Shown: piece by piece, positions 50,084 through 53,229 of the stretch
Layout: every line of letters begins with the position of its first letter
Numbering within the stretch: position 1 is the stretch's first letter
Origin: Bacillus sp. FJAT-45350
GTDB lineage: Bacteria > Bacillota > Bacilli > Bacillales > NISU01
Reading direction: 5' to 3'
Assembly: GCF_002335805.1 (NCBI RefSeq)
Contig: NZ_NISU01000001.1
Span: 1,372,079 to 1,436,078, forward strand
DNA: 64,000 nt
Notes under the pieces: model-generated
The model's database searches: none
Seen by the model: only the letters and a program-made list of their open reading frames with translations
Told to the model about the DNA's origin: nothing
Program-made: the position numbers and the translations under genes

Positions 50084-51268
50084 ATGAAATGTTCTGTAAT
50101 AGATGTTACCAACGAAGGGGTCTTGGAACAACTAAGATTTTTAGATTTAACTAGCGAAGATTTGCTTGTTGTGAAAAGAATGCAACCATTTATTACGAAG
50201 CATATTGACCTACTAGTAGATTCCTTTTATCAAGTTATTATTCAAGTTGAAGAATTAAAAGAAATTATCGGTACTCATAGTTCAATGGAAAGGCTAGAAA
50301 CTACGTTGAAGGTACACTTAATTGAATTATTTAACGGAAAAATTGATGAGCAATTTATTAATAAAAGATTAAAAGTTGCAGAAATTCATTTTAGTATAGG
50401 ATTAAAGCCTAGATGGTATATGGGCGCCTTTCATAACTTACAAAATAAGTTATTTAGATTAATCGAAGAACAAATCACTGACCCAAAAGAAAACACACTT
50501 TACATAAATGTTGCAACTAAAATTCTTAATTTAGAACAACAGCTAGTATTAGAAGCATATGAAAAAGAAAGTAAGGACTATCATACAAGACAAAATGAAT
50601 TGTTAATAAAAGCTGAAAAATTATCGGTAGTTGGTCAGCTTGCAGCGGGATTTGCTCATGAAATTCGAAATCCATTGACAACTCTTAAAGGCTTTACACA
50701 ATATTTTAAAGCGGAAGCAAAAGAAAAGCACTTACCTATTTATGATTTACTACTTTCGGAATTAGATAGACTGGAATCGATCACGAATGAATTTATGATC
50801 GTCGCAAAGCCACAAAAAAATAATTACAAAGATGCTGATGTTAAACAAATATTAGTGCAAGTCTTATCTCTCTTAAACCCACAAGCTTTAATGAATAATA
50901 TACAATTTATCATACAAACAGAAAAAGAAATTCCTATTATTAGCTGCAATGAAAATCAACTAAAACAAGTTTTCATAAATCTATTAAAGAACGCCATGGA
51001 AGCAATGCCAGATGGTGGCGATATACTATTACAAATGGAAACTTGTGAAAAGAAAGTGATTCTAATTAAAGTGATAGATAGTGGGATAGGTATTTCAAAA
51101 GAATGTATCAGTAAAATAGGAGAACCGTTCTACTCATTAAAAGAAAAAGGCACAGGACTTGGATTGATGGTTACTTATAAAATAATTGAAGCTCATAATG
51201 GAAAAGTAGAGTTCTTTAGTCAACCTAATAAAGGAACTACAGTTACTATAACTCTTCCATTTCTATAG
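50084..51268 (+). CDS. Globin-coupled histidine kinase
   Basis: A 394-residue soluble kinase. The N-terminus (about 1-165) is a protoglobin-type sensor with the HemAT-like motif AEIHFSIGLKPRWYMGAF, where H102 is the likely haem ligand. HisKA has GQLAAGFAHEIRNPL (H192 phospho-accepting), and HATPase has NLLKNAMEAMPDGG, DSGIGI and KGTGLGL. The kinase core resembles sporulation kinases (KinA/KinB group). Predicted: an oxygen- or NO-sensing input, perhaps to Spo0F, since no response regulator gene is adjacent. ATG 50084 has AGGAGGAAAATGA. Confidence 0.88.
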   Translation: MKCSVIDVTNEGVLEQLRFLDLTSEDLLVVKRMQPFITKHIDLLVDSFYQVIIQVEELKEIIGTHSSMERLETTLKVHLIELFNGKIDEQFINKRLKVAEIHFSIGLKPRWYMGAFHNLQNKLFRLIEEQITDPKENTLYINVATKILNLEQQLVLEAYEKESKDYHTRQNELLIKAEKLSVVGQLAAGFAHEIRNPLTTLKGFTQYFKAEAKEKHLPIYDLLLSELDRLESITNEFMIVAKPQKNNYKDADVKQILVQVLSLLNPQALMNNIQFIIQTEKEIPIISCNENQLKQVFINLLKNAMEAMPDGGDILLQMETCEKKVILIKVIDSGIGISKECISKIGEPFYSLKEKGTGLGLMVTYKIIEAHNGKVEFFSQPNKGTTVTITLPFL

Positions 51269-51290: not shown

Positions 51291-51312
51291 GGTGAACATA
51301 AAATTGTTCACC
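51291..51312. terminator. Hairpin between convergent genes
   Basis: Stem GGTGAACA / TGTTCACC. Confidence 0.55.
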
Positions 51313-51321
51313 ATATAAATA

Positions 51322-52407
51322 TTATGTTAACTCGAGAGCTTCTATGGCTAGTTTCTTTGCGTCCTTTTTCACATGTGAGTAAATTTGTGTAGTCGCAACC
51401 GATTCATGACCTAGTAAACTTTGAACTGTTAGTACATCAATTCCTCTATGAACAAGTTCCGTCGCAAAACTATGTCTTAATTTATGAGCACTTATATTTT
51501 TATAGCTTAAAAAGGGAAGATAGGTTTTCGCACGCTCGATATGACGTTGAATCATTTTTTGAATCGCACTCACTGTTACTTGCTCAGTATATTGATTTTT
51601 CTTGAAATCATAGCCGACAAATAATGATTGCTCATATGATGTAGGGCGGTGTTGCTTAGGTAGGGATGTCATGTATTGATTAATAATCTTCAATGTTCCC
51701 TCATTTAATGGAATTGTTCGTTGCTTATTTCCTTTACCAATAACGGATAGCTCTCTTTCTTTTGTGTTAAAGTCTTTTACTTTGATTTGACAAAGCTCTG
51801 AAATACGAAGTCCCGTCATAATCATTGTGTGAATGATCGCCCCGTCTCTTTCTTTTAAAAGAGTATGATACTTTATTTGCCTCTTTGACATACCTTTGTC
51901 AGAAAGAATAATAGAAAACAGCTCCTCGTATTCATCACGATTTAAATAGATAGGATCTTTCCGTATGACTTTTGGTCGTTCCACATCATTTACTGGATTC
52001 AAGGTTGTGTACTTTTGTTGTTTAAGAAAATCGAAAAGAGACTTTAATGCTGATAGTTTTCGATTAATTGATTTCCCATTATTCTTTGCATGTAATGAAA
52101 GGAATTGTATATAGTCTTCTATCATTTCACGATCAATATCTATAAAATCCTCTAACGTAATATCCTTTATTTGAAAGTCTTCACCAGTCACTTCATGAAC
52201 ATAATCAAAAAAACTTTTAAAGTCATATATGTAACGTTGCAACGTAGTCATAGAATAGCCAAGTGCCATTCTACTAATTACATACTCTTGGATGAAGGGA
52301 GGCATTTTCTCAACGTAGCGAAATTCAGCAAGGGCAGATCTCGTTGTATGACCTAATCTATGGCTGTTTTCCTTTTGCGAGTTTTTTAGCTTTTTTAAGA
52401 CCGACAT
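51322..52407 (-). CDS. xerS: Tyrosine recombinase, XerS-like
   Basis: A 361-residue tyrosine recombinase. An N-terminal SAM-like core-binding domain (about 30-140) is followed by the catalytic domain with all residues: TGLRISEL (Arg), GKGNKQRTIPL (Lys), HKLRHSFATELV (His and Arg), LLGHESVATTQIYSH (His and Tyr nucleophile). The length and the extended N-terminus fit XerS, the single-protein chromosome-dimer recombinase of streptococci, also annotated in Bacillus. MSVLKK at 52407 follows AAAGGAG and is taken as start. A palindromic site lies 34 bases upstream. Confidence 0.85.
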   Translation of the reverse strand: MSVLKKLKNSQKENSHRLGHTTRSALAEFRYVEKMPPFIQEYVISRMALGYSMTTLQRYIYDFKSFFDYVHEVTGEDFQIKDITLEDFIDIDREMIEDYIQFLSLHAKNNGKSINRKLSALKSLFDFLKQQKYTTLNPVNDVERPKVIRKDPIYLNRDEYEELFSIILSDKGMSKRQIKYHTLLKERDGAIIHTMIMTGLRISELCQIKVKDFNTKERELSVIGKGNKQRTIPLNEGTLKIINQYMTSLPKQHRPTSYEQSLFVGYDFKKNQYTEQVTVSAIQKMIQRHIERAKTYLPFLSYKNISAHKLRHSFATELVHRGIDVLTVQSLLGHESVATTQIYSHVKKDAKKLAIEALELT

Positions 52408-52440
52408 AGGCAGAACTCCTTTCAGTTTCATTATATCACG

Positions 52441-52466
52441 TTCTGTGAAATATATGTTTCACAGAA
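52441..52466. promoter_or_regulatory. Candidate recombination or operator site (10-6-10 palindrome)
   Basis: TTCTGTGAAA and TTTCACAGAA, perfect inverted arms, flank the 6-base centre TATATG. This is the geometry of a tyrosine recombinase core site. A third copy of one arm, TTTCATAGAAG, lies at 52494-52504. The site also covers the upstream region of the recombinase gene, so autoregulation is possible. difSL of streptococci lies next to xerS in a comparable position. Confidence 0.5.
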
Positions 52467-52713
52467 GGTAAAATATCTTTATTAGTATGTAAGTTTCATA
52501 GAAGTGTATTACTAGAGCTTGAATTATAAAAATGTTGAAAAACAAGTTACGGGCACAGCTTTAAAGTAGAAAAACATATTTAGCAGTTTAATTTAAAGTA
52601 GTTTTAACATACTGTATATAAGAGGCAGTTTAGTGGATTGGTGATAACAAGCAGAAACTATGTCTACAATGTGATATTATAAATAAAAGAAGTAGGCGTA
52701 AGGAGGAATTATT

Positions 52714-52929
52714 ATGGCTGTGAGAAGAGAAGATTTGTATAAAATCATTGACAAAGTTTCAGAAAAAAATTTAGAGAAGGTAAAAGAAATCCTTGAAACC
52801 TTAACTAAATATGAAGAGGAATTTGATGAAGTTGAACCAACTAAGGATGAAAAAAAAGCAATTGAAGAGGCAATATATGGGGAATTTCATTCTTTTGAAG
52901 ATGTTTTTAAAGATGACTTAGATGTTTGA
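52714..52929 (+). CDS. Type II antitoxin
   Basis: A 71-residue acidic, helical protein (AVRREDLYKIIDKVSEKNLE, then KYEEEFDEVEPTKDEKKAIE). Its stop lies inside the toxin start with an 8-base overlap, as usual for TA pairs. It has a GGAGGAATTATT site. The N-terminal helix-helix would be the DNA-binding/autoregulatory part and the acidic tail the toxin-binding part; no exact family is clear. Confidence 0.75.
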   Translation: MAVRREDLYKIIDKVSEKNLEKVKEILETLTKYEEEFDEVEPTKDEKKAIEEAIYGEFHSFEDVFKDDLDV

Positions 52930-53185
52930 AATTAAAGTTTCAAATAAAGCCAGGAAGTTTATTCAAAAGCAAGATACTCCTACAAGGAAAAGAATAAAAA
53001 ATGCTTTAGTGCACTTAGCAGAAGACCCCTATAACCGAAAAGAAAATGACATCAAAAAGATGAAAGGGTACACCGATACATTTAGACTCAGAGTTGGCGA
53101 TATAAGAATGATTTATAAGATAGAAGATGAAAAAGTAATATTATACGTATTAAACATTGATTTCCGAGGTGACATCTATAAATGA
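52922..53185 (+). CDS. RelE/ParE-type toxin
   Basis: An 87-residue basic protein with the RelE fold pattern: IKVSNKARKFIQKQD, LAEDPYNRKENDIKKMKG, TDTFRLRVGDIRMIYKIED and a final strand VILYVLNIDFRGDIYK. RelE-type toxins cut ribosome-bound mRNA. Basic residues in the FRLRVGDIRMIY strand are retained. Overlaps the antitoxin gene. Confidence 0.88.
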   Translation: MFEIKVSNKARKFIQKQDTPTRKRIKNALVHLAEDPYNRKENDIKKMKGYTDTFRLRVGDIRMIYKIEDEKVILYVLNIDFRGDIYK

Positions 53186-53195
53186 ATACAAGGAT

Positions 53196-53229
53196 AAAAG
53201 GTTAGGAGGGAGTATTCTTAACCTTTTTT
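53196..53229 (+). terminator. Terminator of the TA operon
   Basis: Stem AAAAGGTTA / TAACCTTTT, then T-run. Confidence 0.8.

Follow-up and report, generated by a model that had tools for sequence, protein, structure and literature searches.

The question raised by this locus of Bacillus sp. FJAT-45350 is whether a tyrosine recombinase gene and the palindrome just upstream of it form one working system and, if so, what this system would do for the chromosome. According to earlier descriptions, a few lineages have replaced XerCD by a dimer-resolution system with a single recombinase. The sequence-only reading had taken the locus for either a compact chromosome-dimer resolution locus like xerS-difSL or a small mobile or stabilised island, with a toxin-antitoxin pair behind it. 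Our analysis leads to a somewhat different answer, to which we give a probability of roughly 0.55: here a single recombinase, of a new Xer clade, and its site form a module that in this genome is likely the dimer-resolution machinery. The features in the window, by which we mean the whole 64-kb stretch of DNA that was analysed, are as follows.

51291..51312, minus strand: terminator-like hairpin 3' of the recombinase gene, with a T-rich tail after it
51322..52407, minus strand: Xer-family tyrosine recombinase gene (PF00589, start alignment, catalytic residues, tree)
52416..52422, minus strand: ribosome-binding site AAAGGAG as read on this strand, 8 nt before the start at 52407 (from sequence)
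52441..52466, no strand: palindromic core site, proposed to be dif-like; arms 52441-52450 and 52457-52466, centre 52451-52456
52494..52503, minus strand: extra exact half-site TTTCATAGAA in right-arm orientation, 37 bp away, in this genome only
52714..52929, plus strand: putative antitoxin ORF of 71 aa (no family match; position)
52922..53185, plus strand: ParE/RelE-superfamily toxin of 87 aa (PF05016, 35.1 bits, cut-off 23)

The longest open reading frame of the recombinase runs over 51322-52431 on the minus strand (369 aa). The real start is probably the ATG at 52405-52407, which gives a protein of 361 aa, and the longer frame up to 52431 is less likely, because the alignment of orthologues and the ribosome-binding site both point to 52407. 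The protein matches the Pfam family PF00589 with 121 bits, its frame is intact and all six catalytic residues are present (R201, K225, H308, R311, H334 and Y343), which bears out the early claim of a tyrosine recombinase with a complete active site; these six are also invariant in the alignment of 17 intact members of the family. The AlphaFold model is of moderate quality (pTM 0.55), and as a prediction it confirms the tyrosine-recombinase fold and nothing beyond. On its downstream side the recombinase gene directly adjoins a convergent gene for a globin-coupled histidine kinase (50084-51268), in which a protoglobin sensor domain is fused to HisKA and HATPase domains.

The palindrome, TTCTGTGAAA-TATATG-TTTCACAGAA, is a perfect 10-6-10 inverted repeat, as had already been seen in the letters, with a gap of 33 bp to the start codon of the recombinase (52407). 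There are four perfect 10-6-10 repeats in the 64-kb window, so the palindrome alone is not rare, and its significance comes from conservation beside orthologues and not from chance rarity. We searched 397 genomes of the order Bacillales for the recombinase family (E up to 1e-70) and scanned the same genomes with the 28-bp site pattern GTTCYRTGAAA-N6-TTTCAYRGAAC, allowing at most one mismatch. The recombinase clade was found in 14 of the 397 genomes, and the site in exactly those 14 and in none other, always as one copy directly upstream of the recombinase gene; thus the conservation that the sequence-only reading had asked to be checked holds in every carrier. In 13 of the 14 genomes, 49-70 bp separate the centre of the site from the gene match downstream of it; the distance is larger in G009, where the gene match is shortened. 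In that complete genome (contig 1:1349679-1350798) the recombinase gene seems to be frameshifted near a T run and the site is intact; this would be a pseudogene of recent origin or else an error of sequencing. Among the nearest whole-genome relatives, five have orthologues at 47-61% identity, and in these five the palindrome is directly upstream of the orthologue and nowhere else at full match. A contig scan with the single recombinase sequence gave no match, and with the alignment it gave five matches in named genomes (Alkalihalophilus, Shouchella, Halalkalibacter and Alkalihalobacillus), which carry the site too, some of them duplicating the 14 genomes.

In the alignment of the 14 orthologue upstream regions there are 18 invariant columns, every one of them inside the site. 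The arms are nearly invariant, of equal length (10-11 bp) around a 6-bp centre in all orthologues, and often asymmetric in one sense, with CCATG on the far side and CTGTG on the gene side, and the centre varies by subclade (CATATA, TATCAA, TCAACA, TAACTA, TATGTA, TAATCA, TAAACA). Fixed arms with a drifting centre would fit a homotypic recombinase core site; the case for reading the palindrome as a core site is strong, and recombination would be expected at it, to judge from the sequence comparison. Exact TTCYRTGAAA half-sites occur three times in the 64 kb, all inside 63 bp. The third half-site that had been noticed early is indeed there with the exact sequence at 52494-52503, but it is not conserved among the orthologues; it is possibly an accessory binding site. 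There is overlap between the palindrome and the promoter region of the recombinase gene: several orthologues have TATAAT-like hexamers right next to the site, and in this genome such hexamers are found between the site and the gene.

Regarding the identity of the enzyme, the Xer types named in reviews and predictions are XerCD/dif, XerS/difSL, XerH/difH, XerA and XerL (PMC5357621, PMC9765430, PMC3025954). The recombinase fails the curated XerS model NF003462 (182.8 bits, cut-off 267) and fails both TIGR02224 and TIGR02225, for XerC or XerD (195.5 and 197.7 bits, cut-offs 335 and 330). In the maximum-likelihood tree its family is a group of its own, apart from XerS (100/99), XerC and XerD; the family branch has support of 91/94 and was recovered as a single group in each of the 200 bootstrap trees counted. 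Members of the family are 54% identical to each other on average, and their mean identity falls to 26% with XerS and 29% with XerC/D. XerS identity was rejected on the score below the NF003462 cut-off, on the separate clade and on a site which has neither an 11-bp centre nor unequal arms. What survives of the early comparison is a single Xer with an adjacent site, together with the architecture and position of a compact xerS-difSL-like locus (one adjacent site, near the terminus, in 14 of 397 genomes), whereas the name XerS does not.

Single-recombinase systems typically have dif adjoining the recombinase gene (PMC5357621), and the present module shows an adjacent single-copy site in 14 of 14 genomes, placed near the terminus. 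The XerS/difSL system of streptococci and lactococci is alike in its single Xer of ~356-361 aa, in the site beside the gene, in the terminus position and in the TTC..GAA half-sites, but our recombinase falls in a separate clade at about 26% identity and under the XerS model cut-off; moreover, difSL measures 31 bp, its arms being unequal and its centre 11 bp (PMC5357621), whereas in the site of the new clade the arms are equal and the centre is 6 bp. The XerC/XerD (CodV/RipX) system with its dif shares the enzyme superfamily, the 11-6-11 site plan and the terminus location, but has two enzymes instead of one, an unrelated site sequence and about 29% identity, and it coexists with the new-clade recombinase in the relatives tested. 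XerH/difH of Helicobacter and Campylobacter is alike in having a single recombinase of similar length with an adjacent site and in detectable sequence and fold similarity, but belongs to another phylum, has another site and, in sequence, matches less well than E. coli XerD does. XerL/dif of Legionellales is alike by description, with a single recombinase, a near-terminus location and dif sites of long uninterrupted inverted arms of 10 and 12 bp, but in L. pneumophila xerL is >400 kb from dif (PMC9765430). In the open-access literature we found neither this recombinase clade described nor, for Bacillales, a module of a single recombinase next to dif, which is not proof of novelty. Elsewhere in this genome (L004 1471-2445; contig 1, about 675.9 kb) there is a 324-aa Xer-like protein with the FVSFDF and AIQKMI motifs common to the new family, apparently, by eye, without several catalytic residues; it is possibly a catalytically dead paralogue retained for another function.

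The toxin was rightly recognised as RelE-type, the 87-aa protein being of the ParE/RelE superfamily. Its ORF overlaps by 8 bp with the 71-aa ORF, which we take from its position to be the antitoxin, and the two have the features of a ParE/RelE type II pair. The pair is absent from all 17 other recombinase loci compared, and on this ground it was rejected as a part of the module.

The position relative to the replication terminus, another check that had been proposed, came out near the terminus in 14 of 14 genomes, judged by dif or GC skew. In the genome studied here the skew, sampled in stretches, is positive to about 1.442 Mb and then negative; at position 1.4245 Mb (contig 1), the site is about 18 kb from the switch. 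In the relatives, with genomes of 3.4-5.2 Mb, a classical Firmicutes dif lies 9.5-88 kb from the site (13/13), and transcription of the recombinase gene points away from dif in every one of the 13. The distances between site and dif are:

G086, 9.5 kb; G002, 14 kb; G116, 19 kb; G328, 24 kb
G009 and G054, 26 kb; G183, 38 kb; G044, 42 kb; G266, 50 kb
G024 and G067, about 51 kb; G287, 85 kb; G144, 88 kb

The usual neighbours are an rlmK-like methyltransferase gene, a small ORF and an M32 carboxypeptidase gene, a neighbourhood common, at least partly, to this genome and 11 of the 17 other loci; families f10, f25 and f29, as well as Shouchella shacheensis, have other genes right next to the recombinase. 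Since the neighbourhood is kept in those 11 loci, the synteny passed down around parEC and the terminus explains part of the position, and the near-terminus location could be inherited with parEC instead of selected for function.

What sets this genome apart is its state of the classical system. Each of the five relatives tested has two full-length XerC/XerD-type genes. Here XerD is present (2074274) but XerC was not found, the second-best match in the genome being an unrelated integrase, and at the trmFO-hslV locus, where the relative G009 has xerC, the gene is missing and about 330 bp are left. As for the normal dif that was to be checked along with codV/ripX, a 26-base pattern that found dif in 13 of 13 relatives found none in this genome with up to 3 mismatches, and relaxed dif scoring across the 198 kb that surround the terminus gave noise-level matches only. 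The genome is 99.96% complete, as a draft of 15 contigs in which a dif of divergent sequence may persist. In addition, a true XerS gene (400.8 bits with the XerS model) is located at contig 1:1440867-1441961 (locus L002 1480-2577, minus strand), 17 kb from the recombinase and 4.8 kb past the window end, at the GC-skew switch, with parC and gerP-like genes as neighbours. In the tree it groups with a plasmid XerS of Alkalihalophilus pseudofirmus, to which it is closest, and upstream of it no difSL-like site is recognisable. On plasmid pBpOF4-01 (L158 1365-1398) two XerS genes stand tail to tail, and about 70 bp upstream of one of them there is a long palindrome, TTTATTACGTAAAA-TGTTGT-TTTTACGTAATAAA, which is likely a plasmid multimer-resolution site.

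We infer that two protomers of the enzyme would bind the one adjacent chromosomal site, at its 10-11 bp arms, that sister copies of the site would meet near the terminus, and that a tetramer would then swap strands across the 6-bp centre, by which a dimer could be resolved. Given the overlap of site and promoter region, binding there would probably also repress the recombinase gene as a by-product. In most carriers the module would act as a second system beside XerCD/dif, and in this organism, since xerC and a recognisable dif are gone, the module, alone or with the true XerS, likely resolves dimers. The dimer-resolution function is moderately supported, and several points weigh against it: a second system would be redundant in relatives which have dif and, in the five tested, both XerC and XerD; the patchy family seems broken in G009 and so would be dispensable there; and the true XerS at the skew switch could be the main system in this genome.

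The palindrome could instead be mainly an autoregulatory operator, bound by the recombinase or by an unrelated repressor, with the recombination substrate elsewhere or gone. Its overlap with the promoter region, the TATAAT-like hexamers near it and the single site per genome are what an operator would show as well; the invariant catalytic residues, the core-site geometry of a 6-bp centre between two arms of 10-11 bp, and the frequent asymmetry of the arms in one sense argue for a core site, and no other genomic match that could serve as a real substrate was found, so we hold this alternative to be unlikely. Tyrosine recombinases are often integrases, and the clade is patchy with a toxin-antitoxin pair adjacent in this genome, which would suit a domesticated integrase or mobile-element relic having the palindrome as its attachment site. 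Against this, there is no second site and hence no element bounded by sites, the neighbourhood is kept at least partly in 11 of the 17 relatives' loci, the toxin-antitoxin pair is missing at the 17 other loci, no orthologue was found among viral contigs, and none of the plasmid and phage matches listed exceeds about 33% identity to the recombinase; the phage search counts one record at 60-80% identity, outside the best matches listed. This relic is largely refuted and very improbable, and the mobile or stabilised island that had been suggested was likewise rejected on the single site, the shared synteny and the lack of mobile orthologues among the matches listed.

It is also conceivable, and in our estimate quite unlikely, that the module is a standing system used in trans (as an IMEX-type integration host or in plasmid cointegration) or at a special stage such as sporulation, and not for routine dimer resolution. 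Its coexistence with XerCD/dif in relatives would agree with such a use, as would the plasmid XerS in Alkalihalophilus pseudofirmus, which has a similar adjacent palindrome of unrelated sequence; however, no phage or plasmid with both site and enzyme was found, and the five viral contigs that match the site pattern show no related recombinase and were treated as chance matches.

The reading as a single-recombinase Xer module extends, more tentatively and at somewhat less than even odds, to the whole family: an undescribed Bacillales Xer clade may be a self-contained recombinase/site system of the terminus beside XerCD/dif, which in at least one lineage took over dimer resolution after the loss of XerC and dif. 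The carrier studied here is an alkaliphile-type Bacillales bacterium, and the clade with its own palindromic site was previously undescribed in the open-access literature searched. Its half-sites and enzymes would make an orthogonal tool for recombination, comparable to Cre/lox and of non-pathogenic alkaliphile origin. A single-recombinase module beside the terminus, with XerCD/dif kept in its carriers and one genome without xerC and dif, would show the replacement of one Xer system by another.
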